From Coemansia sp. RSA 487 (Eukaryota > Kickxellomycota > Kickxellomycetes > Kickxellales > Kickxellaceae): a stretch of DNA of 64,000 bases. Under the pieces are notes generated by a model. The model was not told where the DNA came from and did not search any database. It saw only the letters and a program-made list of their open reading frames with translations. The number at the start of each line of letters is the position of its first letter. The stretch's first letter is position 1. The stretch lies in contig JANBRJ010000039.1 of the NCBI GenBank assembly GCA_027577595.1, positions 82,303 to 146,302 of the forward strand. The letters run 5' to 3'. The translations under genes and the position numbers were made by a program. This document shows positions 1,026-63,715 of this stretch, in pieces.

Positions 1026-1079
1026 CGACCACCACGAAATTCAGCCAAGGTTATAGCCGCGGCAAACCCTAGTTCTAGG
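1026..1079 (+). ncRNA. Candidate omegaRNA 3' scaffold / right end of left Fanzor element
   Basis: The 54 non-coding bases after the Fanzor stop codon match the same region of the right-hand copy (63662-63715, minus strand) at 51 of 54 positions by eye. Similarity stops abruptly after CCTAGTTCTAGG (1068-1079), an inverted repeat with 5-bp arms. A second palindrome, GCCGCGGC, lies at 1056-1063. Strong non-coding conservation with hairpin potential, immediately 3' of the nuclease gene and ending at a sharp boundary, fits the omegaRNA scaffold of TnpB/Fanzor systems. The guide would then be read from the flank beginning at 1080. The RNA probably starts inside the coding region; that 5' end cannot be placed. 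Family knowledge supports the role; the transcript is inferred. Confidence 0.6.
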
Positions 1080-1199
1080 AATCTTAGAGTTCTAGATTTG
1101 TTACACAAGAAAAAGCAAATAAGCAGAAAAATACAAACAGGAAAAATCTGCGCACACTGCAATTGTTTATCCGTGTTAAATGTAAATGCTAGTTTCAGA

Positions 1200-4100
1200 C
1201 TAAAACTTCTTCGGGATCTGGCTGTGACCGGCGGGGTGCGACAAGGACGAATGCGGGAAAATCGACGCTGCTGGCATCGGCATGAGTTTCAGCAAAAGAA
1301 TTGGGTAGGCAGGTGCCAGAAACTCCGCCAGACTCAGGTCCAAGTCTCTGATGACAAGTGAAATGATGTGCTTCCGTGGGAACGGGTTTGGGAATTCAGG
1401 AATCGGGTCAGCTGCCCGGTAACTCAGTGTCTCGTCGCGCTTCACATCCGAGTAAGGTTGTGCGCCAAGTGGCGCGTTTGACGTCAATATATTTGTGCGT
1501 GCGTCGTTTGTGGACTCGAGCGCCCTGGGTAAACGGACTACTCGCCGTCTCTTTGGAGGGAGCATAGATAATGGCCTGCCCTCGTCTTCTGACACGCCCA
1601 GAGAGTCCGCGGGAGACTCTGCCATGTCCATCATTGCTGGATCCATCACATCGCGTTTGAATGCCTGGAAATTGCGTGGCTCTTCCAGGCAGAGCTGCGG
1701 ATCGCTAAGGACCTTTATTCCTGCGACAAACAAGTTTAGTGCTGGTGCCCAGTGCCGGAGCATCCGGAGTATGTTGAATACGTTGGATAGCCGCGATTTT
1801 GCTCGCCAGGTGATGTTCCCATCGCAATTCCTCAGGAAGCTGACATATGTCACAAGTATCTCGAACATTGTAAATATTATCGGCGACCCGAGCGTGTAAA
1901 AGTTGAACTTGCACGTGTAGGCTGCTTGCACAAGGCTACATAACGCGTTTGCCGACGTGATTGCCTGGATACGGCATCCGTGAAAATACATATTCATGTA
2001 TCCAAGCCCTTCAGAAACTGCTGGTGGCAATGTCGCACAGTCGTACAAGTCACGGATGCCGAACGCTGCCGTGTTCACATCTGGCGGCGGCAGGTCGATG
2101 CGTTCTCCCAACATCATCTTCATGACGTAGCGGTTGGCCCGGACCAGGAATGTGTGGTACAACATCAGCATCATGATAATGTCCTTGAGCTGGGATGCCC
2201 TTATATCGATATCCCTCGGTGACATTGTTGACGATGAACTAATGGCTTCAACATACTCCGAAACCATCCCGTTGTCCAGAACCAGATCCGGTGGCAAGGA
2301 GTACCTCCACGCCCGCATTCGCTCCTTGAATATCCACAGTCCTTTGAGAATTTGCTCCAACCCGCCTTCGTTGCGCTTGGCGTTGGATATCAGCACGTTG
2401 AATCCAGCAAAAATAACAAGAAGCTGCTGCACATATGCAGCATTTACGGCGAGTCGGTTGAAGCATGGCGAGCCTTCGGGTCTCATTCGCAAAAACTCCT
2501 TATCGCTGGGCCCACGGAACCGCAGTTTTGGTGGAGGGCTGGAATCTGCGCCGAGCCATGAGTTTTTGGGAATCATGTCCATCAGATCCACGTCGTACGT
2601 CTGGCTGGTTGTGTACAGGTCAAACGTCTTTGACGAGTACACAGGCAAGCTGTCCAACGAATAGTCAAAGTTGCTTCCGCTCTCGATAAGCATAAGGGAC
2701 ACCAGCTTCCAGAGGAAACACTTCCAGAAGATCACCAAAATATACTGGAAACCAAAACTCTCCTTGTCCTTGTCGTCGACGCCGTGCCACGGGTAGCTGT
2801 GCCCCATGTACTTGATCCGCCGCATAACATTTATGGCCATGGTTGAATGCTCGTCCATTTCCTTGTACCGCAGCGACTGGAACTCGTAGCGTGCCAGCAT
2901 ACACAGCCCAATTGCGCCCCATAGCTCGGAGCAGTTCTTAACAAACGGGACCTCGCTAAGGGCAAGCTCGTAGCAGCTCTCGTCAATGTCCGGTGGCACC
3001 ATTGACTTTATATCGAGATTGGCTACACTGAAGCGAATTGTGCTCGATATATGGCCAAAGAACGCAATTCGGGGAAGCACGCCCTTGTGAAGCATGTACC
3101 ACAGCAGCTCGAGATTCAGCGAAACCATGCCCATGCGAGGTGCCTTGAACGTCTCGCGCATAATCTTGTAGATCACATTAGGCGACGGATGGCCTGGAAT
3201 TAGCTCCACATATTCGCGGAGCATAGGAGGTATGTCAACATCCTCAGATACGCTGCCTCTAGATGACTGTGCCGGTGTGGAGGGCAGCGATCTGCTAGGG
3301 GAGACGGTGGCGGACCGCGAGGCCAGGTTCACTATCTGCTGCCGAATCCGGCTCTGGGTGCTTTTCGAATCAGCTGACGTATGTCCAGGCATCAGAAGTG
3401 ACGGGCTGTCCGGAGCTGGAAAGGAACTAAATGAAGGCCGAGCAGGTCCTTCCGAATGCTGCGGTTTGACATCAAACACGCTGTATATCGGCGATATGGG
3501 CATTGGTGGTCCAAAGTTGGTGTGGAAATAGTCCTTTGGCACAGATTCATCGCGCTGCTTGTTCATAACTTTGACGGCATCTTGTGCACTAGGCCTTCGC
3601 CGATCATCCAAAAGGTCCTTTGCATTGAATGGCTCTGTGCTTAGGGGCGAGTGTCGCGAGTAGCTAGTATGCGATTTCGCTAGTGGTTTTGGCAGCTGAG
3701 CAGCAGCAGTAGTAATTGCATTTGTGGGTAGCGTTGGTACCAGGTTTCCAGAAAAAACGCTGCTATTTGCCATGGGCAGAGGTGCAGAAGATGGCGTTGC
3801 ACCTGGTACGCCAGATAGCAGAGACGGCTGTATTCCTTGGGTATTGATCCCAGAGTCAAGACTGAACATGAGCTCGCCATTCAAAAGATTCTGAGACATG
3901 TTGTCCGAGCCACCAAACTCCATATTTACATCGTCAAGCCCAACAGGCATCCACTCGTGTTGAGAGTTGAGATTCCAAGATGTGGCCAGATCTCCCAGAT
4001 TGGCGAGCATGTTGGCCTCGGTGTTGGTAGCAGTTGTCCATCCCGATCTCGAGAAAGGCGTATTTGTAGCAAATGGCGTCATAAACGAGTTTGCCGCCTG

Positions 4101-4631
4101 TACCAGGTTTGCGGGTGGATTGGACTGTGGAACCATATCCACAGAGAGCAAGCGCGTAAGAGCGGCAGCAGAGAAGATGCCATCTGGAGAAGGCTGCATA
4201 GAAACTGACCCACCTAACTGCTGACTAGTAAGAGAGGAGTCCAACGTCATTTCTGGCAAAGTATTCGCCGCTGTTGCTGCTGCTGTTACTGCTGCTTCTG
4301 GCGTGCTTGCTGTATTGGCAGCAGGAGGCTGCTTTCGCTTGCCATTGCTAGCAGCACTTTTGTTGTTCCATCCATCCGTAGGCAAAGAAGGTCTCTGCTT
4401 TTGCTCTTTCCCGCCCTGGGTGATAACCACAGGGGTCCTGAGAGCATCAAGCGAAGAAGGCGAGCAGCCCTTGAGCTGGTTCTTGAAGCGCATCGACCGA
4501 CGGTATCGGCAAGGAACATTGTGGTTGCTGCACCACGAGCAAGAAGGCTTTTCGCCCGTGCACTTTCGCTTCTTTTGGCGGCACCGCTCGCAAGACCGTA
4601 AGAAAGGCAAGGTTTCAGGATCGAGCTCCAT
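1200..4631 (-). CDS. Zn2Cys6 fungal-type transcription factor (1143 aa)
   Basis: Nuclear DNA-binding regulator; target genes unknown. I start it at the Met at 4631, not at the ORF's upstream Met (4781): the 50 extra residues are hydrophobic and unlike the rest, while the zinc cluster then sits right at the N-terminus, as is usual. The six cysteines, C14-x2-C-x6-C-x6-C-x2-C-x6-C41, form the binuclear zinc cluster with a basic KKRK between Cys 2 and 3. A low-complexity Ser/Ala/Thr-rich linker follows. Around residues 470-900 is a helical region rich in Trp/Tyr/Leu that resembles the fungal-specific middle homology domain. A basic PKRRR patch lies near the C-terminus. No intron is needed. Its zinc cluster shares the LRSCE-x-C-R-x-KKRKC signature with the second Zn2Cys6 gene in this window, so the two may be distant paralogues. 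Confidence 0.9.
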   Translation of the reverse strand: MELDPETLPFLRSCERCRQKKRKCTGEKPSCSWCSNHNVPCRYRRSMRFKNQLKGCSPSSLDALRTPVVITQGGKEQKQRPSLPTDGWNNKSAASNGKRKQPPAANTASTPEAAVTAAATAANTLPEMTLDSSLTSQQLGGSVSMQPSPDGIFSAAALTRLLSVDMVPQSNPPANLVQAANSFMTPFATNTPFSRSGWTTATNTEANMLANLGDLATSWNLNSQHEWMPVGLDDVNMEFGGSDNMSQNLLNGELMFSLDSGINTQGIQPSLLSGVPGATPSSAPLPMANSSVFSGNLVPTLPTNAITTAAAQLPKPLAKSHTSYSRHSPLSTEPFNAKDLLDDRRRPSAQDAVKVMNKQRDESVPKDYFHTNFGPPMPISPIYSVFDVKPQHSEGPARPSFSSFPAPDSPSLLMPGHTSADSKSTQSRIRQQIVNLASRSATVSPSRSLPSTPAQSSRGSVSEDVDIPPMLREYVELIPGHPSPNVIYKIMRETFKAPRMGMVSLNLELLWYMLHKGVLPRIAFFGHISSTIRFSVANLDIKSMVPPDIDESCYELALSEVPFVKNCSELWGAIGLCMLARYEFQSLRYKEMDEHSTMAINVMRRIKYMGHSYPWHGVDDKDKESFGFQYILVIFWKCFLWKLVSLMLIESGSNFDYSLDSLPVYSSKTFDLYTTSQTYDVDLMDMIPKNSWLGADSSPPPKLRFRGPSDKEFLRMRPEGSPCFNRLAVNAAYVQQLLVIFAGFNVLISNAKRNEGGLEQILKGLWIFKERMRAWRYSLPPDLVLDNGMVSEYVEAISSSSTMSPRDIDIRASQLKDIIMMLMLYHTFLVRANRYVMKMMLGERIDLPPPDVNTAAFGIRDLYDCATLPPAVSEGLGYMNMYFHGCRIQAITSANALCSLVQAAYTCKFNFYTLGSPIIFTMFEILVTYVSFLRNCDGNITWRAKSRLSNVFNILRMLRHWAPALNLFVAGIKVLSDPQLCLEEPRNFQAFKRDVMDPAMMDMAESPADSLGVSEDEGRPLSMLPPKRRRVVRLPRALESTNDARTNILTSNAPLGAQPYSDVKRDETLSYRAADPIPEFPNPFPRKHIISLVIRDLDLSLAEFLAPAYPILLLKLMPMPAASIFPHSSLSHPAGHSQIPKKF

Positions 4632-4978
4632 GACTAGTGATATATATAAGGGCGTATGTACGATAGGTAATATAATGTAAAAAGTAGAAACTTGGAATGG
4701 AAAAAGGGATGAGGAGCCGAGAGTTTCTCTTTTTCGATCGAGATTCAAAGCTGCAGAAAACCATAAACTCAAGTGCGACATTTTGATAGGCCAGCAAGAT
4801 GTAGTTGTGTTTGTGGGGAGCTCAAGACAAGTGTTATAAATCAGACTCTTTTGATGACGGCTCCCTTATCTTTTAACTTTCTTTTGTTTCTTTTTCCCAG
4901 GGCGACAATGGTTACACACGGATCGGAGGACGCTTGAAATCATAATACTAGCCAAGATATAGTAGTGCCATCTAGAAA
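4632..4978. other. Divergent intergenic/promoter region
   Basis: This stretch separates two divergently transcribed genes. For the minus-strand factor, a TATA-like ATATATAA lies only a few bases upstream of the chosen start. Polypyrimidine tracts occur at 4730-4740 and 4862-4900. No further gene is visible. Confidence 0.5.
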
Positions 4979-11845: not shown

Positions 11846-13501
11846 TCAGGCAAGCCATTCCGAAAATAGGTTCTTGTTTTGTGGAAGGATAAACTCCAAT
11901 CCTCCTCCAGCAGCAGCAGCCATCATTGAGCTCGCGGCGCTGCTACCGGACGTCGCAGCATATTCCATGCCAACATCCATGGGTCCAGCTGTTGTTGGCT
12001 GGTACATTTGCTGGAGACCAAGCGAAGATGATACAGAATGGGGATTTGGCGTCACCAACGCACCTGTGGTGTTTGCACAGGATACTGGCCACATCCCACT
12101 GCCATTTGCTGCTGCTGCTGCTATTGCTGCTGCGGCCGCAGCTACTGTTGTCGTTGTTGCTGCTGCTGCTGGTGAGCACAATGGGTAGGACGATGCCGCA
12201 CAGCTGTCGATGCCAGATCCAAACGACATTGCCGAGGCCGGTGGTGAGTACATCAGCGAGCCGCCGTTTGTCGGTGTGTACGCAATCGAGACCATCGGTG
12301 TCTTTATCATCATTGTTGCGCTCTGCTGGCTCTTAAGCGTGTTGGTGAACAGGTTCATATAGTCACCGTCGGCAAGAATGGGCTGAGGTGACGAGACAAC
12401 TCCGTTTGTTGTGCCAATATCCGAGGCAATTCCAACAGTCGGCGGGTACATGCTCTGCTGCTGCTGCTGATGTTTATTGTTGAGTAGCGGCGACGTAACC
12501 GTGGCATCGCTGTTCATCGACATTGCCATCGACGACAGCAGTGGTTGCGGTGCTGCCGAGGACTGCTGTCCAAACGAGAAATCCATGTTGAGAAGAAGCT
12601 GGGGCGGCGTGGAGTTGGATGATGGTGATGTGTAGTACGTGGACGAAGAAGCCGTGGCATCCTCGTCACCGCCACCCCCAACCGGCGGCATCATGTACGC
12701 TAAGCCGTTGACGCTGTTGATGTTGCTGCTGCCAAATCCCATCTTCGACTGCTGTTGCATCTGAATGTACTGCTGCGGTGCATCGCTGAACTGTCTGAGG
12801 CATGGTGCCGATCCGGGTTGCATTGATGATGGTGTAGATGGCGATGGGAGAATATCAGCCTGGGCGACGCCACCAGCCACCGCTGGGCTTAGCATCAGGT
12901 CAGCAGGCGCCAAGGTCGTCACGCCGGCAGACATCCGCTGCTGCATTGCAGCCTGGGAGCCGCTCACGATGGGCATCTGCGATCCGTGCATATTATTCAG
13001 TGTTGCAGTAACCGTTGACATTGCGCGAGGCCGGCGCCCACCATCGAACCCGTCAAATCTGCCGCCGCTGCTGATTGCCGAATAGTGGAGCCGTGGTTTT
13101 GTCACCATGCTGCTACCGCCCGCAGAAGAAACATGGCCCACGGATGTGCGCTTTTTGGACGAGTGGTTCAAGCGATGAATGTTGCCCGAGCCCATGCCAT
13201 TGGCGCGAGGCTTGAAGTAGCGCGCTGTGGGACGGTACATACATGTCTCGCCTTGTGCGGTGCATCGTGTGCACGTCGGCTTGTCGCCACTGCACTTGCG
13301 CTTTTTGCGGCGGCAGTTCTCGCATGATCTGAGCATTGGGACGTCGTTAGGAAACTGAGACGATGGCTCCTCGAGCGTTAGTTCTTTCGGCGCCGACTCG
13401 CTCTCCTTTGGGCTTGAAAGTAAAGAGTCCTGGGTCGCTGGCGCTTGGAGCGGGCTGTTTTGTATGTCCTGATACACATCGTCTGATGCTATGCTTGACA
13501 T
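11846..13501 (-). CDS. Zn2Cys6 transcription factor with homopolymer tracts (551 aa)
   Basis: Nuclear regulator with a binuclear zinc cluster at residues 60-87 (C-x2-C-x6-C-x6-C-x2-C-x6-C, basic RRKKRK between Cys 2 and 3). I start at the Met at 13501 (MSSIASDD); the longer ORF adds 30 residues made mostly by translating a GTGGAT-type minisatellite. After the zinc cluster the protein is almost entirely Ser/Gln/Ala/Met-rich low complexity, with a poly-Gln run, short Gly runs and two Ala runs near residues 450-465, which look like activation regions. No fungal-specific middle homology domain is evident, so it is much simpler than the 1143-residue factor at 1200-4631. It shares that factor's MLRSCE-x-C-R-x-KKRKC-x-G-x-KP zinc-cluster signature. 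Target unknown. Confidence 0.88.
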   Translation of the reverse strand: MSSIASDDVYQDIQNSPLQAPATQDSLLSSPKESESAPKELTLEEPSSQFPNDVPMLRSCENCRRKKRKCSGDKPTCTRCTAQGETCMYRPTARYFKPRANGMGSGNIHRLNHSSKKRTSVGHVSSAGGSSMVTKPRLHYSAISSGGRFDGFDGGRRPRAMSTVTATLNNMHGSQMPIVSGSQAAMQQRMSAGVTTLAPADLMLSPAVAGGVAQADILPSPSTPSSMQPGSAPCLRQFSDAPQQYIQMQQQSKMGFGSSNINSVNGLAYMMPPVGGGGDEDATASSSTYYTSPSSNSTPPQLLLNMDFSFGQQSSAAPQPLLSSMAMSMNSDATVTSPLLNNKHQQQQQSMYPPTVGIASDIGTTNGVVSSPQPILADGDYMNLFTNTLKSQQSATMMIKTPMVSIAYTPTNGGSLMYSPPASAMSFGSGIDSCAASSYPLCSPAAAATTTTVAAAAAAIAAAAANGSGMWPVSCANTTGALVTPNPHSVSSSLGLQQMYQPTTAGPMDVGMEYAATSGSSAASSMMAAAAGGGLEFILPQNKNLFSEWLA

Positions 13502-13508
13502 TTTGCGT

Positions 13509-13544
13509 ATGTGTGGATGTGTGGATGTGTGGATGTGTGGATGT
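13509..13544. repeat. Minisatellite, about four copies of GTGTGGAT
   Basis: A perfect 8-bp tandem repeat lies just upstream of the Zn2Cys6 start codon, in its 5' leader or promoter. Read in the ORF frame it would give a His/Pro/Thr repeat, which is why the longer ORF start is not credible. Confidence 0.9.
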
Positions 13545-16500
13545 GGAAGCCAAAGCGAAAAAAGGAAGAAGGGATGGGGAGGAGTAGACAATAGAAATGA
13601 GGGTTGAAAATAAAAAAGATGAGAGGATGAGGCACGTATTTAAGCCAAATGTCAGAAGGGGCCTTTGCTTGACTGATTTCTTGGCAGAAGAGTGTGAACA
13701 AGAATAAACGGTACACAGAACAAAAATAGGAGAAATGTTGCTGTTGGTTTGTTCTAGAATGAAAAGGGAGGGGCTTGGTCACACCTTCAGGTTTTGAATA
13801 GAAAAGTCTCCTTTTGTCCCGGAATAGAGAGAACGCGTGGGTGGGGGTGTTTTATTTTGTTCCCTTTATTTCTGTTGGTCGTTTTCTCGCAGAGCACGAA
13901 AGAGGGAGAATAGGCCTGATATCCACTGTGATTCAAACCAAAATAGACGTTATCAGCCGTGATGTCTGGTGTTAAGATGTGAGGAATAAATAGCGAGGCA
14001 ATAGAGGAGCAGCTGCTCTGGAGTTAGATTTAAATATGCTCAGAAAGCAGCCAGATGATGGCGAATTGTGAGTGAAATGATGACAGAAAATAACTGGTTG
14101 TGTATTAGTCAACCCGCTTACAAATGCTGAGATGTTTGTGCAGGAACCACGATGTATCAAGAGCCAATAGGAGGACAAGGATACAAAAGGCCAAAGCTGG
14201 TAACGAAAAAAGCAATGCCAAGAGCCAAGAAAACTAAAGCAAGTGTTGAGGATGATGAGATCCAAAAAAAAACAAGTCAAGCAGGAGATATTTGAAAAAA
14301 AAAAAAGATTCCAAGAGGTAGAAACACAAGTGTCGTGTATGTAAGCAAACACGCAAGGTGAGAACGTGTGCCGAGAATACGTGAAAGAGATGGGTGCTCA
14401 ATATATTGGGGGCAGAGGCAGTGGTAAAAACAACAAAGGAATTGAAAAAAGAGAAAGGATTGGAAAACAACTTGCCAAGACGAAGCCTGGTTATCATCCA
14501 CTTGTATTTATACGAGACACTAAAAAAACAAAAGACGAAGCGCTGACGGCTGCCAAATAAGCAATGTGTGGCACGACTGGAGAGCACTGACTTGAACGGA
14601 ACCTTTTTTCCCCCCACTCTCTATATCCCGGGGGGCAAGGGAAGCCCGTTGACTGCCCGCTGTTTATACAAAGCATACGTCGATATTAAACCAATTAGGC
14701 TTAACAAACAGCTTCTTACATTACAATGGACGCGCAATGTGTTAATAATTGAAGCAGTCCTTTCCTTTTTGACTGCCGGCCGGCTATGTTTGCTCTCCCC
14801 GGAAAACACAACATCCGTCTAAAAATATATTGATCGCAGAAGCCATTACAAGGGGGAGAGGAGAGGGGGTGTTGCTAACACACCTGCTTCGCCTTTCTGC
14901 CACACACAGCCAATCTTTTTCTTAGCTTGCTGGTTGCACACGCTGGAAAAATCTCGGACTTGAGCACAACAACTCCGAAACCCGTCCATTTTCCTTCGCA
15001 CTTTACCCAGCCATTCTCTGTTTGCCTACTTGTGCATTTTGCCCTGGCTTTGCTGTTGCTACTGCCTGCATCCGCTGTAACAACTCACCTCCCTTTCTGG
15101 GCAAAACGCTCTGCCGACTTTGCACCCTTTCCGTTTCCTCATCTTTGTTGTCGGCTGATCAGATTTCCTATTCTCTTCTTTCAAATCTATTTGTGTCTGC
15201 ATAAACGGAAACCACCATCTTCTCCTGAACTGGCTGAGGCGGGTGGCCACTGCTCTTGAAAGCACTCATCCAAATGAAAAGTACATTTCTCGATGCCTGC
15301 CTGTGTTCACCTTGTGTCTTATTTGCAAAGCGTAAAGTCTCTTGGGCCGGAAAGGCGCAGTCAGCCCACAAAGAACGCAAAGCAACTTATCTTCTTTATA
15401 CGGATAGGCGCGATTAGCTTATCAACAGCCAATGTACAAACAGCAAACTTATCTACCAAAAATACACATGTGTTTTACAAATAATGCATTAATAGGCAGC
15501 ATGCTAGGAATACCGCGAACCAGGTGCTCCTCAATCTCTATGCTAGTGTGAATTTCATTACTAGGCCGGGCTTTGCAAAAAAAGATTATGTTTGCTTTCC
15601 CCTTTCCTTTTTTCCGAATATCCCGAGCAGCCTCGTACCATCTTACTAATACAGATCATCTATGCCACAAAGTGTGGTTTTTGTTGGGATTGAAAAAAGA
15701 GCAAGAGTTGTGCCGGCCTTGCTTTTCATTTGCCGTTACACTGCAGCGAATTCCGTTGTTTTTATCAGAACACCAACAAACTCCTCCTTTTGGTCTCTCC
15801 CCTTTTTCTTTATCTGCAAAGCTATTCAGTCCGATTCGCTCGTTAATGAGCCAGAGTGGATCCCAGTCACTAATCTATCTTCAAGCTCAAGGGCTTGTTC
15901 GCATGGAGAAGACGGTTACGAATCCCGAACACCGGGAACTGTCGGGCGCAAGGAGAGGAGTTCCAGTACTGTGTTTTTGTTGTTCTGTGACTGGAAACAC
16001 ATCAGGATGCTTGTCCGTTCGCAAATGCTATTTTCGGCCAGCATTCGGCTGGATTACTGTAAGGGTGTTTCTTATTTTTAAACCGTTTTCCGAAAGTGTG
16101 ACCACGGATTTGGTATTTCCCGACACTTGATCCTGTGACGATTTTGATGTGTTGATTAAGCGTTTTTGTTGCATTTGAAATTGGACCGAACCCGAAAAAA
16201 CAAAAACAAAAACAAAAACAAGAAAAGCGATGCACTTCCATACTCACAAATCGTATACCCAGGAAGATATGGCACCTTTTCCTTGCATTACTAATTGCAA
16301 GCCATGTTTTCATTGTTGGTTTTGGTGTGACATGTGTGATGATTTCTAGAACATGTCCCATCATGCATCGAGATTGATTTCGCATCTCGTTATTTGTCAT
16401 CCAAAATCAACCGAACACCAAAATGTGTCTTTTTTTCAATGGTTGGACACAACAATGTTGTCAAAAAAGATTGGCAACGTATGTTTTCGCTCATAGGCAA

Positions 16501-29550: not shown

Positions 29551-29632
29551 GGGAAGATGGCCGAGCGGTCTAAGGCGCTGCGTTCAGGTCGCAGTCTAGT
29601 AATAGGCGTGGGTTCGAATCCCACTCTTCTCA
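29551..29632 (+). tRNA. tRNA-Leu (anticodon CAG)
   Basis: Cloverleaf read by eye: acceptor GGGAAGA pairs with TCTTCTC (29625-29631, one G-T wobble). D-arm box A is TGGCCGAGCGGTCTAAGGC. The anticodon stem CTGCG/CGCAG encloses loop TTCAGGT with anticodon CAG. A class II variable arm follows, then the T-arm GTGGGTTCGAATCCCAC. No intron, and no CCA encoded. A T4 run (29640-29643) and a T7 run (29645-29651) follow as the Pol III terminator. It decodes CUG as leucine, arguing against the altered CUG code of some yeasts. Confidence 0.96.
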
Positions 29633-29639
29633 CTTTAAA

Positions 29640-31685: not shown

Positions 31686-34600
31686 TCAGTTACCATCCGA
31701 TGACGACGGATTCTGGTGCTGTGTTTTGTTTCGATAGTATAGTTTTAGTGCATATCTAAGCGGCAGCATTTTTTGCGGACCATTCCACACAGGTACTATA
31801 CTCGCTGAACTGCTGGTGTCCACCATGTTAGTGATTGGCTGTGGATTTGCGGAAGGTGAGTGCGCAGAAACTGCAGGCGTATCCGCCAGCCCGATGGTGC
31901 TGAGATCCAGCGTAATTGTGATAAGTTGCTTGCTTATTTGTGGGAAATCACGCCGAATGATACGCACAACTTCATCAAGCTTGACGAAATATAGCCGAAG
32001 TGCAACAAACTTATTCTTCTCGTGCAGTGTAAACTGGCTGATCAGCTCGTTGTCCGTATCAGATACGCCGATCTCGGCATCTAGCGTCTTTGAAGCGGTG
32101 GCCGCTGTCCTTGGCCGACTGGCTTTAGCTTTGGCTTTGGCTTTAGCTTTAGCTTTGGTGCCTTTGGTTGAGCTACGAGATGTTGCTGTTCCATTTGCTG
32201 CCGATCTCGTCAGCGAGGATGCTGTAGCTCCATGTATGAACTGCAAGTTAGACACAAACATCCCTGCCAATGGCTCCCACAAACGCTCCTTTTGCGACTC
32301 CGTAACCTTCTGACGACACAAGTTTGGGTATTTCGCAAACAGCGGGTTACTCTCGACAGCGTAAGCACTGTCGTTTTCATCATTTTCGTTGTTTTCGTCG
32401 TCAGGGTCACCATCACTCCTAGGCGTGCCTACAGCCATGCCCAAAAGCAGCCTAATTTGAAGATCAACGACAAAGTAGTCCAACTTTGATGTTGGCGGGT
32501 CAGAATGCAGTTGTATGGTGTATAGAGGCAGATATCTGATTGCCTGTGCGGCTATAGATGACTGCGTCCGAGGTTCTGCGTGCTCGATACGCACGGCAGG
32601 ATCCTCTACAATTGTCCGACCGCCGCCAGAACGCGATTTTGACGATTTGGCTCTTTTCGTGGCGAGTGGCATTTGGTGCTCCACCGTCTGACCAAATACA
32701 CTCTCACTTTTAATCTCCACTGTGGGCGTGACTGCTGTCGTTGTCGATGTATCAAAAAGGTTGCTGGGTCGCACAGCTTGCTTATTGCTGCTGGGTTTGC
32801 TCGAACCGTCGATGGTGATGACCGACGAGCGTCCCGGTTGACGCTGTTTCAGTTGCTTTGGCTGCTGTTCTTGTGGCCGTTGCGGATATTCGTTTTTGAC
32901 AAAGCCATCTACGCTAGAGTCAAGGAGACCAATAGCGGTATGCTTGGCACGCTTTACGTTGTGTTGCACTGTCATTCCAGCTACCGACAGCTCGTCTTCT
33001 ACATGGTCCTTATCCTCGTCATCATCGTCATCGATAATTCTCTTTTTCGATGGTCTGCTGCCTCGGCGCTTAGGAGATACGCTGCTCGATGGCAGGCTAC
33101 GTGCTGGACCAGCCCCACCCGGATGGTTTTTGTCAATGTTGGCATTTTCTCTATCCGTTATCGACTCATTTGCTTCCAAAAAGCCGTCAGTTACATCCTT
33201 CAGCAAAGCCGGGCTGATGCTAGAATCCAGTGACGATCTGCGCTGTGTCTTTGACTTACGTTTTTCCATCCGCTCGATAGTTCCAACAAGAACCTGGAGT
33301 TTTCTCTCATCGCGTGAAAGCTTTGATGTACTCGACGAATAATAGTAATTGACCTGCGGCTTTTCGGCTTCGTCGCGTAAGCGCTTGAGCGAGGCAAGTT
33401 CGCGCTTGCTGCCAGTACCATACGCATCATCTTCATTTCGCTCATCAGGACTTTGGGGCTGTAGGGATCCGGATCGCTGTACTCTACCGACTCCACTGTG
33501 GGCAGGCGGCCGCTGCTTGTGGTTACCGCTTTTGAAAGCAGTGGTAGTAATCTGAGCAGGTTCGTGCGCAACAGTGTCTGAGTCTGCATTATCAGAGGCA
33601 ACGTTGATACGGTGGAAATCAGCCACAATACTGGCACTGTCTGACGTATCGCTCTCTGAGGTATCCGAATGAACTGCTGAGCGCTTGCCTTTGCCTTTGC
33701 CTTTGCCTTTGCCTTTGCCTTTTCCATTTTGCGTGGGTCGAGAGTGCTTTTGAACAAAAGGCACAGACGCTCGGTAATTGGACCGCTTGTGCTGCTCGAT
33801 AACCAACAAAACGTCGTCTTGGTCCTCCTCCTTAGCCATGTCCTCTGGGGTTATTTTCTTACTATTTTGGAGATGCGGATCTGCGCCTGCAGCAATTAGG
33901 CAACGCACAACGTCAACATGGCCATTGGCGCAGGCATCGTGCAAAGGCGTATCGCCTCCAAACCCGCGAGCATTAAAGTTGGCACCCCGGCGGAGCAACG
34001 CAAGAACAACATCACTGTGCCCTTCTAGAGAAGCTTCGTGTAATGGCGTCCATTTTGCATTATCCTTCATGTCTATATCCGCGCCCTGATTTATAAGACT
34101 GACAGTTTGCTCTAGGTCGCCTGCGTTGCATGCCCGATGCAGCTTTGTCTGCCCGGCCTTGTCGCGAGTAAGCACTATACGCTGTGCCTTTGCCCGGTCG
34201 GTAAGAAGCCGTGCAATCTTTTCATTTGAGCACGTTTCCAGAGGAGTGAGATATCGAGAGTTTGTTATACTCGTGTTTGCGCCATGGTCGAGAAGCAGAC
34301 AGACAGTGTGTATATCGTCGTTAGTCACAGCCTGGTGCAAGGGTGTCAGCCGCAAGTTTGACGTGGTGAGGTTGACGTTTGGAAAGGGCGACAATAACTG
34401 ACGCAACACGTAGTTTTTAGACATCTCAGAGGTACTGCCTTCGCCGTCGGGATCGGTAATATCGCCAACCTGCGCACAAACTGGGGGATCAAGCAGCAAC
34501 TCAAGCGTATCTACGCAGCCGTGCTTTGATGCGGCGTGGACTGCTGTATTTCCATTCGAGTCAGCCATGTTGATTGAGGCGCCACGTAAAAGAAGCTTGC

Positions 34601-35417
34601 GACACACTAGTGTGTCACCTTTTCCTGCGAAATACACGAGCTGAGGACAGCCCTTGTCATCGACATAGTCAGGCTCATCGTACTTTGGCTTTCGACGCTT
34701 GCTCAGCTTGTGCCTACGAAGTGCTTTATCAACTTGGCTTTTGCGGACGGAATTACGATGCTCCGAGTCTGATTCATTGTGCTTCGGGTGTCGTGAGATC
34801 TGCAGCTTACTGGCGGTAGAATTGTCCTCTACATCCGCGTCCAGACCATCCTGGCAATTGGGATTGCTGCTATTAGGCCTACCGTCGTTGTCGTCGTTAT
34901 CATCATCGTCAGCAATGACCTTCCGCCTACGGTGGGTTTTCAATGCAGACGACTGGTTCGACTTTTTTCCATGGCCATGCTTCCTTGCTGCAACGCCACC
35001 ACTACGAGGAGCAGCATTTTTGAAATCGTCAACATCGACCTCGCTTTCAGCAATCACCACCGAGGATTCTGTTTTTTGGCTGCTAGCGTTGCTGCCATTG
35101 ACAATATTTCTGCGACTTCGATTGTTGCTTTTTGAGCGACCAAGCCCATTTCTTACAATAGGGCGATTATTGTTTGTATCCGACATGCCGTCGCTATCTT
35201 CCGCGTCACTAAACTCGTGCAGACTGCTCAGCGAGCCACTGGATGAAAACAACTCTTCTTCATCAAAACATTCGCTATTGTTGGAGTTTTGGTCTTCCTC
35301 GCTTACGCCCTGGCGTCGTCTTCCTGACGTGCTGATGCGTTGTGCGTTATCATCATTCGACGTCGCAAACCACTCCTCGTCTGCCAACACCGTTTCCACC
35401 TCGGAATCACGGTCCAT
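31686..35417 (-). CDS. Ankyrin-repeat nuclear protein, possibly Hos4-like Set3C subunit (1243 aa)
   Basis: Start at the Met at 35417 (MDRDSEVETV); the ORF's extra 57 upstream residues are hydrophobic and not credible. Residues 1-250 are acidic/basic low complexity (poly-Asp, Arg/Lys clusters). Ankyrin repeats run from about 257 to 545, with several good units (TPLHQAVTNDD, TKLHRACNAGD, TPLHEASLEGH, TPLHDACANGH). Next come a (Gly-Lys)7-8 run at about 565-578 and a long disordered Ser/Arg-rich part with a putative NLS. A C-terminal conserved-looking domain follows (LPLYTIQLHSD..VVDLQIRLLLGM..LWEPLAGMFV) with a Lys-Ala repeat inside it. The layout resembles fungal Hos4, the ankyrin subunit of the Set3 histone-deacetylase complex, but that link rests on architecture only. 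Confidence 0.8.
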   Translation of the reverse strand: MDRDSEVETVLADEEWFATSNDDNAQRISTSGRRRQGVSEEDQNSNNSECFDEEELFSSSGSLSSLHEFSDAEDSDGMSDTNNNRPIVRNGLGRSKSNNRSRRNIVNGSNASSQKTESSVVIAESEVDVDDFKNAAPRSGGVAARKHGHGKKSNQSSALKTHRRRKVIADDDDNDDNDGRPNSSNPNCQDGLDADVEDNSTASKLQISRHPKHNESDSEHRNSVRKSQVDKALRRHKLSKRRKPKYDEPDYVDDKGCPQLVYFAGKGDTLVCRKLLLRGASINMADSNGNTAVHAASKHGCVDTLELLLDPPVCAQVGDITDPDGEGSTSEMSKNYVLRQLLSPFPNVNLTTSNLRLTPLHQAVTNDDIHTVCLLLDHGANTSITNSRYLTPLETCSNEKIARLLTDRAKAQRIVLTRDKAGQTKLHRACNAGDLEQTVSLINQGADIDMKDNAKWTPLHEASLEGHSDVVLALLRRGANFNARGFGGDTPLHDACANGHVDVVRCLIAAGADPHLQNSKKITPEDMAKEEDQDDVLLVIEQHKRSNYRASVPFVQKHSRPTQNGKGKGKGKGKGKGKRSAVHSDTSESDTSDSASIVADFHRINVASDNADSDTVAHEPAQITTTAFKSGNHKQRPPAHSGVGRVQRSGSLQPQSPDERNEDDAYGTGSKRELASLKRLRDEAEKPQVNYYYSSSTSKLSRDERKLQVLVGTIERMEKRKSKTQRRSSLDSSISPALLKDVTDGFLEANESITDRENANIDKNHPGGAGPARSLPSSSVSPKRRGSRPSKKRIIDDDDDEDKDHVEDELSVAGMTVQHNVKRAKHTAIGLLDSSVDGFVKNEYPQRPQEQQPKQLKQRQPGRSSVITIDGSSKPSSNKQAVRPSNLFDTSTTTAVTPTVEIKSESVFGQTVEHQMPLATKRAKSSKSRSGGGRTIVEDPAVRIEHAEPRTQSSIAAQAIRYLPLYTIQLHSDPPTSKLDYFVVDLQIRLLLGMAVGTPRSDGDPDDENNENDENDSAYAVESNPLFAKYPNLCRQKVTESQKERLWEPLAGMFVSNLQFIHGATASSLTRSAANGTATSRSSTKGTKAKAKAKAKAKASRPRTAATASKTLDAEIGVSDTDNELISQFTLHEKNKFVALRLYFVKLDEVVRIIRRDFPQISKQLITITLDLSTIGLADTPAVSAHSPSANPQPITNMVDTSSSASIVPVWNGPQKMLPLRYALKLYYRNKTQHQNPSSSDGN
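32120..32160. repeat. Hexamer microsatellite encoding a Lys-Ala tract
   Basis: Imperfect GGCTTT/AGCTTT repeats within the ankyrin gene code for alternating Lys-Ala on the minus strand. Confidence 0.85.
33683..33722. repeat. (TTTGCC)n hexamer microsatellite encoding a Gly-Lys tract
   Basis: About six perfect TTTGCC units within the ankyrin gene encode Gly-Lys pairs on the minus strand. Copy number could vary between strains. Confidence 0.9.
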
Positions 35418-36186
35418 TTTCTCTAACAGTAGGAAACCCAGGCAAATAGTCAAACAAAAATTAAGCAAGCAGAAGCTGTGTGGAAAAATTGTTGAAATAA
35501 AAGCTTTTGAAGGCACAAAGTTAAAGTTATAACGTACCATAAAAGAATTAGCGACCGCTAATGCTGAAAAGATGTACACAACCGCCAACGAACAAGTACA
35601 ACGTTGCTATTTTCAAAATGCCTCCTCAGTCTTTTTTGGTACTGCGTATTTACAAAAAATAAAAGACAGGAGGAAACAGGCCAGACCAATGCTTTCCAGA
35701 GTAATGGAAATGAACAGCGGGGATAATAATTTTAAAGAGTACAATGGTGAATGCCACTAAATTTCCAAGCAAATAAAAAAGTATACAAGGGAGAAAATGC
35801 TGGAATAAAAAAGAATAGTAAAAACCCAAGGAAATTCTATTTGCAAGAAAGAAAGGAAGGAAAGGGTAAACACGTCGTAATGAAAAGTGGTGTCATTTTT
35901 TTCAAGCTTGGACGATCATCCATTACACAGGCGAAAAAAAGGCTCTATTATCAACACCAAAAAGGGGGGATGATCAAACACACGAGCGATTGGCCAAAAT
36001 ATTACTGATCGCTGCGCACGTGCCATCAAATCCAAACAAGGCGAAAGCAGGTAATTCCTGTGTTGCCTTTGAAAATAGTTCTAGATGAATCAGAGATTTT
36101 CTGCGAGGAGCAGAAAGCTTCGCAACATTCCAAACAGACGGCAACAATTTTGTCTAACGTAGCTTCACAAGCTTTCGATCACTCAA
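35418..36186. other. Intergenic region, 0.8 kb
   Basis: Upstream of the ankyrin gene and downstream of the RING gene, both minus strand. A/G-rich on the plus strand with several A-runs. No gene is seen. Confidence 0.4.
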
Positions 36187-49836: not shown

Positions 49837-52800
49837 ATGATATTTGCATTTCTAATTGACACTAGTGTCTCCATGGAGCAGGAGCTCAGTTCAGCTTTGC
49901 CTGCTGGTTCTGAGCGTAATGCTGGTGAGCAACAGCAACAGCCTAATGAAAGCCTGTTTAGTGGGGAGAAGGACAGGGTCAACCGTCGCTGGCAGCGCAA
50001 GAACCTTGGTTCCGGCGCAGCAGGCGCGAAGACACACAAAAGCACAAGGCTGGACTGTGCAAAAAGCATTGTTGAGCAGATAGTTGCTAACCGGCAATGT
50101 TTTGAAAACGACAAGTACATGCTGGTGACGTATGGTGGTGCAAGCAACGGATGCATTCGTTCGAATTTGAAGGATTCGCGTGCCACATTGCTGACAGAGC
50201 TACGAAAGCTGGAAGCAAAGGATCGGTTCTCGGGTGGCACATCTCTGACGGCCCTGTTCGACCAGCTCTCTTTGATGCGGAGCACTTACGACCTGGACAC
50301 ATATGGATACGGCCGCTACCCTGCGCTAAACGAACCAGTGCAAATTGTGTGGCTGACAGATGGTGCCAGCGTGGTGACGCCCAACGGAGTACGGAATAAG
50401 CTCAATTTGCCAGTAAATAACACACCGTGGGTCGAGGCGTACTTGGAGCCGTTCCGATGGGACCAGAGAATGACTATTCTGTTTCTTCACGATCATGATA
50501 ACAGCATTCTCTGCGGAAACAAAAAGTATAACAGCGAGAGCACGCTTATGCCGATGTGCTCGGTGATGGGCGGCACCGCGCACCATATTGGATCGATGCA
50601 CCAAGCGCAGCGCTTTGTCGAGTCGTTTACACCTGCACGGGCAGCACCAAACTCCAACCGCGCTCATGGATCTGCAATGGCGAATGTTGGTGTGTTGGTC
50701 AATTTTGAGCGCATTGATGACAACCCAGCCAACCCAGGCAACACGGATATGCGTACCCTTCTCCACACCACACCAAGCACGATTACCAGCGCGCCGCTGC
50801 CACCGCCCAATGAAGCCAATGTTGCCATGAATGGCAGCACCCCGAGAGGCGTTGGAGGTGGTACAGGCTATGGAAACAGTGCTGGCGTATCGGCGCTAAT
50901 AAATGGACACCTGGGCTATTTTCCAATACCAGAGCCGTTTTGGCCAGAGACGATAAGCCCACCACGTGGTGTTGGTGGACCACCCGGCACCAGTCAGCAG
51001 CAGGCGGGTGGTGGTGGAAGCAACAGTTGGCAGATAACCCGCCGCAGCGCACACCCAACATTGGGCTATAGCCAGGCTAGTACGGAATGGTCAGTCCCGC
51101 CACAATTCCCCTTTGACAAGTACCTGATCGACACCAGTAGCAACGTTGCCCAGAAGCTCCTGGCAGCAGCACAGGCAGCACAGACGGCCCACGAGGCGCA
51201 AGGCGGTAAAGGTCAAGCAAAGCCTGTATGCTGGGCAGTGTTTGTCAATGGTTCGTACACAACAACGAAAAACTCTGGGTTTCCGTTCGGGATTTTACGC
51301 CCCAATTCGGCACGCACAGCGGTCAACTTGTTTGTGCTGCCATACAACTTTGTAGCTCTGTGGAAGATCCTCGGAAAGCTTGACGCACACGTGCCTGGCC
51401 AACATCCAAACCGCAACGCAATCGCAATGTCTCCAAACTGGCGCCGTGAGTTTGAGGAGTACTTGCAGCACACGCCCGGATACTATGCAATCCCTCTCAA
51501 GCGCGCGCTCAACCTGTTTGGCGTTCCACACGGCGTGTTTCCAAAATCATTTGGTCAAAGCTCTGGAATGCGCAACATTACGCACTACTCTGTCCGCCTG
51601 CACACCATCGCACGCAAAGAGTGGGATCGGATATATCCCGGCAGCGGGGTCGAATCAAGAGCTGGTGGCGTATCCGGCGCCAAAGATAAGGCCATGGCTC
51701 TGCAACAGGCACTGCTTTCCTTCGACCCAGCGTCCGATGTCAGCCATTTGGCAAGCAACGCCTTTGACGTCGATCGCGCGCATTGTCTGGCCACACTCAG
51801 CGCAATGCGCCGTGTGTTTGTGCGTGAGTGCATGGCAACCCAGAGCGCGTATTTCAGAGCAAATGCAGTTGTCCCGCCGTCTCCATCAGCAAATGCGGCG
51901 GCTTTCGACGACGATAAGAAGCAGGCTATGGACGTCGACGACGATGGCGTATTTTCACCACCATCATCATCGTCGTCATCAGCGCCATTTTTACGTGCAG
52001 GTGGCGCTATCTCGCCTTACATTCCTCCGGTTGCCAGTATGGAGTATTCGCTGTACGGGATGTCGAATGCGTTGGATAGTAATCTTTCTTCGCCGTATCT
52101 CTCCCAGTCGCCTAGTAATCGCCAGTCATTTGGCTTGCCTGGAAGGCAGCGCCCATCCGATCCAGATTTGCAGCAGCTTGTGCCTGGCATGCAGCTTTCG
52201 CCACTGGGTGGTCTGGTTGATGTTGCCAGCGAGGACGACCGCGATTCGCGACACTCAGTGCCCATTCGCGACATGGGGGAATATGGCGCTGCCATGAACA
52301 GGATCAAAACAAACGAGGCGCGTGACCCGTTTTTGGACGAACGCACTGCGCTACAGCAGCGTCGGAACATGTTTGGAAACCCGTACAGGCGACCAATGCG
52401 CGAGCCACGCGGTCCTACAAACAATGTCTTGGCACGAAATCCAGAACTTTCAGCAAAGCTTGGTCTGTCCCGTGGCAGCTCATCGAGATCTTCAGGCGGA
52501 ACTGCACAATTAACAGCGGCAGTTGGTGCCTCTTCGTTAAATGCAAGCACAGGTAGCGGTATTGGAAATAGCACGGCATCGAGGTCAGAGGTGGAGGATG
52601 AAGCAGGAGCGGCAGTTGGCATGGAGATGGAAAGCGAGGCAGAAGTCAACGAGTTTGCAATCGACAAGATGTTTGAGGATATGCCGCTGAATGTCGACGA
52701 TGGAAGCAAGGACCCTGGCGGCGGGAGCAAGTATTGGTGGATGCAGCGCAGAAACGTGCCGCGTAGAAGATCGATCAATACACCCTGGCGCAAGAACGAC

Positions 52801-53628
52801 GTTTCGTGGAATGTTAACCCGTGGGAAGTCCTAGTGCCGGCAGACGAGAGCGAGGAAACAACACCCAACAGTGTTGGTGGCGACATCAGTGGCGCTGTGG
52901 CTGATCTGGGTGCCTTGACTTATACAGCTGACGCGCTCGTTATAAACAAACAGACGGCGCAGATACTTAGATCAACAGGTAATAGCGCAAACAACAGCCC
53001 CGTCCCGAGCTCAAGCCCAGCAACAATGCCTAATATGGCGCCGCCATCATCCCAGCAGCAGCAGCAGCAGCAGCAGCAGGAGGAGGAGGAGGAGGAGGAC
53101 TTTATGCAGGCGCATATGGGCGGAGATAGTGCTGACTCCAGCCTCAGTTCCCAGGATGGACTTTCATTGGGCCAAGCCAGTAGTGATGAAGACATGATGC
53201 AGCCTTCAGCTAGCAATGTCTCTCCTGATGAGAAGGAATTTGGCTCTAGCACAATGGACGTTGTGCAGGATAATCCGGTTGACATATCGTTGGATAAGAG
53301 CAACGAAAGCAGTACAGATCTTGGAGATCCTGAAACCATCAAGTCAGAGACTCGCCCAGCAACCTTGCCAACAGCCAAGCCCGCAGCACCTGGAGCCAAA
53401 GTCAATGTTGCAAACGAGAAGGCGTGGTTTATGAAGCGCATCAAGGCGGATCCAGCACACTACGATGAAGAGACGATCGTGCAGCATTTGGCAGATCTCC
53501 AGAAGAACCCGACGCTGGGCAAGCCTCATCTCAAGATTATCGTCACAGCCGCAATAGTAGCGGCAAAGTCGATGCGCAAAAAGCAGCTAATATCTCGTCT
53601 GGAGAAGGTTGTGGCCAAGGGAGCCTAG
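49837..53628 (+). CDS. INTS6: Integrator complex subunit 6-like protein (1263 aa)
   Basis: In animals, INTS6 is part of Integrator and bridges its endonuclease module to PP2A, controlling snRNA processing and promoter-proximal attenuation. The vWA domain starts MIFAFLIDTSVSM with an intact MIDAS D8-x-S10-x-S12. INTS6-type blocks follow: DKYMLVTYGG, YGYGRYPALNEPVQIVWLTDG and EPFRWDQRMTILF. The middle has FPFDKYLIDTSSN, CWAVFVNGSY and FVLPYNFVALWKIL. The last 70 residues (NEKAWFMKRIKAD..KKQLISRLEKVV) match the conserved C-terminal INTS6/SAGE domain. Between them are long disordered Ser/Gly/Pro segments and a Gln8-Glu6 run encoded by CAG/GAG repeats (about 53051-53098). Intronless. Yeasts lack Integrator, so this is phylogenetically notable. 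Confidence 0.9.
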   Translation: MIFAFLIDTSVSMEQELSSALPAGSERNAGEQQQQPNESLFSGEKDRVNRRWQRKNLGSGAAGAKTHKSTRLDCAKSIVEQIVANRQCFENDKYMLVTYGGASNGCIRSNLKDSRATLLTELRKLEAKDRFSGGTSLTALFDQLSLMRSTYDLDTYGYGRYPALNEPVQIVWLTDGASVVTPNGVRNKLNLPVNNTPWVEAYLEPFRWDQRMTILFLHDHDNSILCGNKKYNSESTLMPMCSVMGGTAHHIGSMHQAQRFVESFTPARAAPNSNRAHGSAMANVGVLVNFERIDDNPANPGNTDMRTLLHTTPSTITSAPLPPPNEANVAMNGSTPRGVGGGTGYGNSAGVSALINGHLGYFPIPEPFWPETISPPRGVGGPPGTSQQQAGGGGSNSWQITRRSAHPTLGYSQASTEWSVPPQFPFDKYLIDTSSNVAQKLLAAAQAAQTAHEAQGGKGQAKPVCWAVFVNGSYTTTKNSGFPFGILRPNSARTAVNLFVLPYNFVALWKILGKLDAHVPGQHPNRNAIAMSPNWRREFEEYLQHTPGYYAIPLKRALNLFGVPHGVFPKSFGQSSGMRNITHYSVRLHTIARKEWDRIYPGSGVESRAGGVSGAKDKAMALQQALLSFDPASDVSHLASNAFDVDRAHCLATLSAMRRVFVRECMATQSAYFRANAVVPPSPSANAAAFDDDKKQAMDVDDDGVFSPPSSSSSSAPFLRAGGAISPYIPPVASMEYSLYGMSNALDSNLSSPYLSQSPSNRQSFGLPGRQRPSDPDLQQLVPGMQLSPLGGLVDVASEDDRDSRHSVPIRDMGEYGAAMNRIKTNEARDPFLDERTALQQRRNMFGNPYRRPMREPRGPTNNVLARNPELSAKLGLSRGSSSRSSGGTAQLTAAVGASSLNASTGSGIGNSTASRSEVEDEAGAAVGMEMESEAEVNEFAIDKMFEDMPLNVDDGSKDPGGGSKYWWMQRRNVPRRRSINTPWRKNDVSWNVNPWEVLVPADESEETTPNSVGGDISGAVADLGALTYTADALVINKQTAQILRSTGNSANNSPVPSSSPATMPNMAPPSSQQQQQQQQQEEEEEEDFMQAHMGGDSADSSLSSQDGLSLGQASSDEDMMQPSASNVSPDEKEFGSSTMDVVQDNPVDISLDKSNESSTDLGDPETIKSETRPATLPTAKPAAPGAKVNVANEKAWFMKRIKADPAHYDEETIVQHLADLQKNPTLGKPHLKIIVTAAIVAAKSMRKKQLISRLEKVVAKGA
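53051..53098. repeat. CAG/GAG trinucleotide repeat inside the INTS6-like gene
   Basis: Consecutive CAG codons followed by GAG codons encode poly-Gln then poly-Glu. It is potentially length-variable. Confidence 0.9.
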
Positions 53629-61935: not shown

Positions 61936-63228
61936 TTAACGGCTGGTAGGCTTGGGCTTCATCGAGGCACCGCGGGCCTGCTGCTTGCTGATCTTCTGGG
62001 CAGTATTAGGGGCGTTGGCACGCTCGGCCTTCTTCTTGGCAGCCTCCTCCTTGCGCTTTGCCTTGGCCTTGGTGACAGCCTCGGCACGAGCAGCGGCACG
62101 GACGTCGGTCTTCTCGTTACGGCGAGCGTTGATGGCCTCCCACGAGACACCAACAACAGCACGGTTGTACTTGACAGCGCGGCGGGTGCGCTTCTTCGAG
62201 GCCTCCTCCTTGATGCCCTTGCGGTGTGCCTTGCGGTACAGTCTGGTCCAGGCGATCTTGCGTGGGTTCTTGGCCTGGTCGAACAGCGAGTTCGTCTTGG
62301 AGCTCAGGAAGCGGAATGTCTTCGAGTCACCACGAATAAAGACGCGACCGCGGCTGGGGTAGATCTTGTACCCAGAGAAAGAGCAGTTCTCGAGCCTACC
62401 GACAAGTGAAAAGCAACAAGCAAATGCAGAAAGCCAAGGTAAAAGAGAAGTATGGTTGTTAGTAGCCGTCGCGTATAAAGCTATTTAAGGCCCAATCGTT
62501 CCTCATTATATTTACAAGGGTCAACACAGCACAAGTGTTGAGATGAACACCAAAGCCAACGCACGAGCCCCGTCTGAGCCTGTTTTCCATCAGGAACAGT
62601 CATAGAGTATAGCAACGCCTTCTCCTATGTTCTGGCAACAAAACGAGAAAGGCAAATGAACGACTCGCTCGTAAATGCTAGGATCTGGAATCTGTGTCTT
62701 TTGTTCGATGACTACCGATGCGTTGCAATGGACCGAAATATCCCTGCATTGTCGCTGACGTTAAAATTATGTTCATTGAGAGTTGGTATGAAACTTTCGT
62801 TCAAGTAGTTCTGGCATATTTTATAGCCGGTAAGGTAACGTCTTTCTACACCGCACAATCGCTGTGTAGTCTGCTAAGACACGTTGAATTCACCAGGCCA
62901 TTGGAATTTAAGAGAGGGGAGCAGGCGAATCGTGTTCGAATCTCTATCCCTCTTTCGCAAGTGTAACAAATTGCTGAATTCGCGCATTCAAATTAAAAAC
63001 ACGGTCGAATTCAATATCAACTCTTTGCGACCATCTGATGCTCGGATGCGCTAATCATCAAAAGCGACGTCGAATCCATCGCATAAGCCGCATCTATTGC
63101 CTTTCTTGTCTGTTCGCTCCCGCGTTCATCTTGCTACATATCCTCTCTATTCTGCCTTTGCCGCGATACGTGGGTGTTCATCTATACAACACGGTGCAAC
63201 GATGGATGCGGCCTGACACTCACTTCAT
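61936..63228 (-). CDS. RPL24: Ribosomal protein eL24 (154 aa, 5-nt first exon)
   Basis: Large-subunit ribosomal protein. The main exon (61936-62395) encodes LENCSFSGYKIYPSRGRVF, RGDSKTFRFLSSK, NPRKIAWTRLYR, KKRTRRAVKYNRA and a Lys/Ala-rich helix ending KISKQQARGASMKPKPTSR, matching fungal eL24. It has no ATG and starts with a split codon after TAG at 62396-62398; a TACTAAC branch site lies at 62458-62464 (minus strand). The only good match for the missing start is ATGAA|GTGAGT at 63228-63218, giving MK-LENCSFSG and a total of 154 residues (yeast 155). The intron is then 828 bp (62396-63223), long for this genome. The body of the gene is certain; the first exon is inferred but fits in sequence, frame and length. 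Confidence 0.88.
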
Positions 63229-63661
63229 GACTAAGAGTAGTTTATAATATTTATGCTGTATACTTTTCGAAAGAGAGAGGACATGATCGTAAAGTGTGAA
63301 TCGCATCCCACCCAGAAATAACAGACCATCAAACCCTGATCGATCACCAAAGTTGTGATTAGAATTTGCGGGATAAATGGGATCAGGGGAGGGGCGATGA
63401 TGAAACTCGAACTTTGCTAATTGTGTCGAATAAGGATGTATACGCGTCGAATGGTGAAAGGTTTGTGGTGGTGGTAATATGCATTTTGCGTTCTAAGAAA
63501 AGTCGTTTGCATCGGTTGGTGTGGAATATGTGTCCGTGCAAAACAGGAAAACAGGAAAACAGGAAAACAAATGATTAGTACTGTTGTCTAGAGGCAGCCA
63601 CAATGTTTATCTCTTCAGTTCTCATTCGAGCACCTTACCTGCAAAAGGGACAGCATCATGC
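63229..63661. other. Region between eL24 first exon and right Fanzor end
   Basis: Presumed eL24 promoter, followed by an (ACAGGAAA)3 tandem repeat at about 63543-63568. No gene is seen. If the right element carries an omegaRNA, its guide would be encoded by the last bases before 63662, read on the minus strand. Confidence 0.45.
63543..63568. repeat. Short tandem repeat, three copies of ACAGGAAA
   Basis: A perfect 8-bp repeat about 95 bp from the Fanzor element boundary. No known function. Confidence 0.85.
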
Positions 63662-63715
63662 CCTAGAACTAGGATTTGCCGCGGCTATAACCTTGGCTGA
63701 GTTTCGTGGTGGTTG
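63662..63715 (-). ncRNA. Candidate omegaRNA 3' scaffold / end of right Fanzor element
   Basis: Non-coding 54-nt block after the stop codon, 51/54 identical to 1026-1079. The two palindromes, GCCGCGGC and CCTAG-TT-CTAGG, are kept unchanged, while all three substitutions fall outside them. This pattern suggests selection on, or recent descent of, a structured RNA. Confidence 0.6.

Follow-up and report, generated by a model that had tools for sequence, protein, structure and literature searches.

The Fanzor1 proteins PpFz1, from Parasitella parasitica, and SpuFz1, from Spizellomyces punctatus, are described in the available excerpts of two reports as omegaRNA-guided nucleases (PMC11423790, PMC10432273). 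In the excerpted text of PMC11423790, SL1 of the omegaRNA consists of seven pairs in each of three solved Fanzor1 complexes, and a single SL2 precedes the guide in SpuFz1 and PpFz1, with four pairs in the latter. The same text presents the PpFz1 scaffold as the smallest known and includes C50-C58 in the guide segment of its omegaRNA. For SpuFz1, the portion of PMC10432273 at hand describes a 75-nt scaffold that runs across the right-end repeat of the element and is followed by 14-15 nt of variable flank; the RNA has a 6-nt linker and its stem 2 lies directly ahead of the guide. "Ghost" scaffolds are also reported there to be functional with SpuFz1 in human cells. In SfAV Fanzor1, according to an excerpt of PMC10711439, the target-site duplication lies inside the scaffold and the RNA extends ~15 nt beyond it. 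The fingerprints given in that excerpt for Fanzor proteins are the DPG motif and an alternative Glu.

Results

Two inverted Fanzor1 gene ends

The window (the whole 64-kb stretch of DNA that was analysed) contains two Fanzor1 3' ends in inverted orientation, one at each of its ends. The repeat arms form a single ungapped block of 339 bases, of which 310 are identical (741-1079 against 64000-63662; 91% alike); the block is truncated at its far end by the window edge, and the 5' parts of both Fanzor1 copies, together with the left ends of the elements, lie beyond it. Apart from this inverted pair, a search of the window for repeats of at least 40 bases returned none. In the left copy, phmmer identified a coding piece in frame 1 (1-630, + strand) with the RuvC1 DPG motif at 124-132, and a C-terminal piece in another frame (651-1025, +) that carries the alternative Glu, a C4 zinc finger, an NRD motif and a TAA stop at 1023-1025. 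The right copy is represented by a C-terminal piece (63716-64000, - strand) in which NQD replaces NRD at 63880-63872.

PpFz1 (PDB 9cf0-9cf3) is the closest solved protein by sequence, followed by SpuFz1. In phmmer searches of the PDB, the left 210-residue piece matched PpFz1 (9cf0) with E 1.5e-19 and SpuFz1 (8gkh) with E 7.6e-6; the corresponding values were 1.3e-19 and 4.2e-11 for the left 124-residue C-terminal piece, and 7.2e-9 and 0.0036 for the right-copy piece. These two proteins were the sole PDB sequences matched by the three pieces at E <=1. Pfam gave no match at E <=0.1 for two of the three pieces, and for the third a single sub-threshold match to a Cas12f1-like TNB (14.3 bits against a cut-off of 26.3). 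The alternative Glu of the left copy is in DEF (660-668), six residues ahead of the zinc finger, which comprises CPNC (684-695) and KCTNELC (789-809); the right copy spans the second Cys pair only. The third catalytic Asp is kept in both copies and the Arg of the RD motif only in the left. The REC and WED regions of both copies fall 5' of the window edge.

The frame shift of the left copy, located between 630 and 651, may stem from decay or from a sequencing error. Divergence between the copies is lower at nonsynonymous than at synonymous sites (dN 0.066, dS 0.227; Fisher p = 0.004 on counts), and the protein was therefore under constraint for at least some of the time since the copies separated. 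Given the frameshift in the left copy and the substitution next to the catalytic Asp in the right one, both are probably remnants of an old Fanzor1 element, and any scaffold derived from them would therefore have to pair with protein from another copy. Both copies also extend ~20 C-terminal residues past the solved ends of PpFz1 and SpuFz1 (963-1022 and 63778-63719). This extension includes a basic stretch, PKKKRK in the left copy (987-1004) or PKKKGK in the right; we take the former to resemble a nuclear localisation signal. Between two aligned blocks, the left copy has ~10 residues (424-456) where PpFz1 has ~108. Since these residues fall in the region of the FRI insertion of PpFz1, the left copy seems, from the alignment, to be without this cyclophilin-binding domain.

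The surrounding DNA is fungal: it encodes Zn2Cys6 regulators (1200-4781 and 11846-13591) together with host genes including Tfb4, adaptin and eIF2A. A tRNA-Leu (anticodon CAG) is located at 29551-29633 on the + strand. Open frames run unbroken over 1200-4781 (1193 residues), 31686-35588 (1300 residues) and 49837-53628 (1263 residues), and such long frames suggest that the source fungus is intron-poor.

A shared non-coding tail with a sharp border

The stop codon of each copy is followed by a non-coding tail of 54 bases (1026-1079, +, and 63715-63662, -). A sequence-only reading of this DNA had reported that 51 of the 54 bases are common to both copies, that similarity is lost at the same point in each, and that both palindromes in the tail are invariant; all of this was reproduced. 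The three differences (left/right) are G/A at 1027, T/C at 1040 and C/T at 1067. Similarity ends at 1079 and 63662, just after CCTAGTTCTAGG, with none of the next seven positions in agreement and nothing collinear aligning beyond them. Both GCCGCGGC and CCTAGTTCTAGG are the same in the left and right copies. A tandem array of AAAACAGG (3.8 perfect copies, 63540-63569) is situated ~90 bases outside the right border.

An nhmmer search of the 64-kb window for a third tail recovered the two known copies (E 2.6e-20 and 6.2e-20), and the next best hit had an E value of 2.3. Allowing up to two mismatches, CCTAGTTCTAGG occurred only at the two tail sites, each on both strands, giving four matches against a chance expectation of 2.48. 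Further copies were sought in other collections, in searches sensitive to fairly close relatives only. Viral contigs yielded none when queried with two protein pieces, an exact pattern of 18 bases and one alignment, and neither did plasmids or phages with one protein piece. Bacterial and archaeal genome contigs, where there was little chance of finding one, also gave no further copy with one protein piece and the same alignment.

The sequence-only reading had also ascribed stronger conservation to the tail than to the coding DNA next to it, citing about 12 differences in 86 residues. This argument compared bases with residues, and it fails when both parts are counted by base: the tail differs at 3/54 positions and the coding part (741-1025) at 26/285 (Fisher p = 0.59). 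The residue count itself is 13 differences in 94. Restricting the comparison to the nearest 60 coding bases, with five differences, gave p = 0.72, and extending it to the nearest 90, 105, 120 and 165 coding bases gave p = 1.0, 0.55, 0.19 and 0.14, respectively. The longest invariant run between the copies is itself coding (768-814, 47 bases). Compared with synonymous sites alone, divergence of the tail is lower (3/54 against 12/61.3; p = 0.029, uncorrected). The tail thus appears weakly less diverged than synonymous sites, with the caveat that coding differences are clustered, 20 of the 26 falling in 865-974.

Predicted structure of the tail

Folded alone, both tails gave the same predicted MFE structure, in which a 4-nt linker separates SL1 (20 nt) from a 4-bp SL2 reaching exactly to the border, the whole spanning 36 nt. 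Predicted SL1 (1044-1063, +; 63697-63678, - in the right copy) has six pairs around a 2x2 internal loop and a UAUA loop. Predicted SL2 (1068-1079, +; 63673-63662, -) is a hairpin as RNA and, as DNA, the near-palindromic terminus CCTAGTTCTAGG, flush with the border. GCCGCGGC forms no hairpin by itself because its loop would measure 2 nt; its GGC arm closes predicted SL1 with an upstream GCC. All three differences between the tails (1027, 1040 and 1067) are unpaired in the predicted fold and, with two copies, yield no covariation.

The frequency of this arrangement was estimated with 20,000 54-mers from the window and 20,000 mononucleotide shuffles. Two hairpins flush with the end were predicted in 333 and 258 of these, respectively, and two hairpins within 2 nt of the end in 993 and 768; the rates serve as a guide only because the cut-offs were picked after the fold had been seen. 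By this measure, the predicted flush arrangement is uncommon. The terminal palindrome is modestly unusual, as a flush arm of at least five pairs was present in 28/5000 dinucleotide shuffles and at 539/60,000 window positions. Nothing is unusual about the inner 8-nt palindrome (315/2000 shuffles contain one) or about the folding energy of the tail (z between -0.8 and -1.4 across six stretches); folds of 120 nt around the two tails gave z -0.6 and -1.5. These longer folds contained a long-range helix pairing coding bases at ~960-970 with ~1053-1063. It was not adopted, as one of its outer pairs is missing from the right copy, its energy is unexceptional and the bases concerned are those of the local SL1.

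When 20 nt of flank were added, SL1 stayed, with pair probabilities of 0.78-1.0, and the probability of SL2 was 0.05 on the left and ~0.2 on the right. This predicted weakness of SL2 weighs against an omegaRNA model, although bound protein might alter SL2. An Rfam search at E <=1 gave no match in 900-1110 or 62800-63850, and a scan of 600-1400 for bacterial promoters and terminators gave nothing exceeding shuffles.

Discussion

These data make it fairly probable that a fungal Fanzor1 element ends, on its right side, in these 54 bases and that this terminus, when transcribed, served as its omegaRNA scaffold. The scaffold had been proposed in the sequence-only reading. The location of the tail downstream of the stop, the sudden loss of similarity in two unlike flanks and the predicted two-hairpin fold fit such a scaffold, and the argument from relative conservation does not hold when made by base; the assignment is probable because of the identity of the gene together with the predicted fold of the tail. 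A sharp border would be seen at any transposon end, whether or not an RNA is made from it.

If the assignment is right, the omegaRNA would derive from the Fanzor transcript or be made alongside it, and would reach ~15 nt into the flanking DNA. In such a complex, SL1 (1044-1063) would dock on RuvC/TNB and SL2 (1068-1079) would sit at the WED/RuvC junction. The flank would steer Fanzor to cut an allele or an empty site without the element, and cutting of the element-free allele would favour retention of the element. The same tail bases probably double as the end recognised by the transposase. Because the copies look decayed, a past function is likelier than a present one, unless an intact Fanzor elsewhere uses the RNAs of these copies. 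If right, the assignment contributes a family of fungal Fanzor1 elements whose predicted guide-RNA scaffold is very compact, a useful case for studying the minimum size of an omegaRNA and the double role of a transposon end that is also an RNA stem.

Taking the guide length from the available excerpt of PMC10432273, the putative guides would be 1080-1095 (+) on the left, which has no similarity to the right flank and whose start a target-site duplication could shift, and 63646-63661 (-) on the right. In a scan of the window for guide targets with up to three mismatches, run without a control and given no weight, the left 16-nt flank matched itself and 29407 (-, three mismatches) and the right flank matched itself only.

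The most compact version of the model can be offered as a tentative and rather improbable proposal. It would define a Fanzor1 family with a complete scaffold of ~36-46 nt, no larger than that of PpFz1, in which the palindromic transposon terminus itself forms the last hairpin. The same 12 bases would act as transposase signal and guide-RNA stem, the guide would follow them immediately, and damaged copies would guide an intact Fanzor in trans, much as SpuFz1 can use the RNAs of "ghost" elements.

The proposal that the guide starts at the border, also made in the sequence-only reading, is uncertain because the scaffold takes in the target-site duplication in the excerpted description of SfAV Fanzor1 (PMC10711439), where the RNA runs ~15 nt past the duplication. 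A scaffold that continues beyond 1079 into such a duplication or extra bases, with a later guide start, is accordingly a variant of the omegaRNA model; it seems unlikely, at a probability that overlaps with that of the preferred explanation. In favour of a later end, the left flank holds at 1088-1095 a second copy of the octamer AGTTCTAG, 17 bases beyond the one in the terminus (1071-1078); 63/3000 random 30-mers match the tail over at least 8 bases on either strand. Against a later end, the palindrome stops exactly where the copies diverge, and the right flank has at most five consecutive bases in common with the tail.

In the excerpt of PMC10711439, the nucleotide flanking IS607 on the right is described as fixed, and Fanzor1 is reported as absent from IS607 elements; since the flanks here differ, starting with A and G, IS607-like ends seem unlikely. 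A TA duplication is likewise a misfit with flanks that start AA and GC, if the border is at 1079.

An explanation that dispenses with a guide RNA would make the tail a transposon DNA terminus, or inverted repeat, kept for transposase binding and encoding no guide RNA. A transposon end alone would account for the sharp end and the terminal near-palindrome, and the ordinary folding energy is in keeping with this. The adjoining gene, however, is a Fanzor1, and the ends of the SpuFz1 and SfAV elements are themselves transcribed scaffold; the order and spacing of the two predicted hairpins also match the known omegaRNA plan. A DNA terminus alone is therefore improbable. The weakest alternative, and a slightly more improbable one, would make the tail plain 3' untranslated sequence from a decayed gene, its likeness due to recent shared ancestry and its common end to the edge of a duplicated or inserted piece; by-base divergence no different from coding (p = 0.59) and the damage apparent in both copies agree with it, but divergence below that of synonymous sites (p = 0.029) and the flush palindrome at the edge (28/5000 shuffles) argue against it.

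With the tail taken as an omegaRNA scaffold, the order and spacing of its predicted hairpins, and its border, come close to the PpFz1 and SpuFz1 plan. The PpFz1 omegaRNA has the succession predicted here, SL1 and then a single 4-bp SL2 before the guide, a likeness at the level of the described plan. By the PpFz1 numbering, should it carry over, the scaffold would be ~46 nt long. PpFz1 differs in the seven pairs of its SL1, against six pairs and an internal loop predicted for the tail, and in the ~100-residue RuvC insertion that forms its FRI domain. SpuFz1, from the element SPu-1 (PDB 8gkh), is similar in that a scaffold with two stems follows the stop and runs across the right end of the element, as far as excerpts of PMC10432273 and PMC3627910 describe it. 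It differs in the length of the scaffold (75 nt, with a long stem 2, against 36 nt for the hairpins predicted here) and in the putative TA duplications mentioned in the excerpt of PMC3627910, the flanks here starting AA and GC. In SfAV Fanzor1, again from the excerpted text of PMC10711439, the end of the element is transcribed as scaffold and the ~15 nt beyond it are the guide, as proposed here; inclusion of the target-site duplication in the scaffold is a feature of the SfAV element. As it stands, the finding opens no new question and extends the known pattern, with an additional member of the Fanzor1 family rather than a new kind of system.
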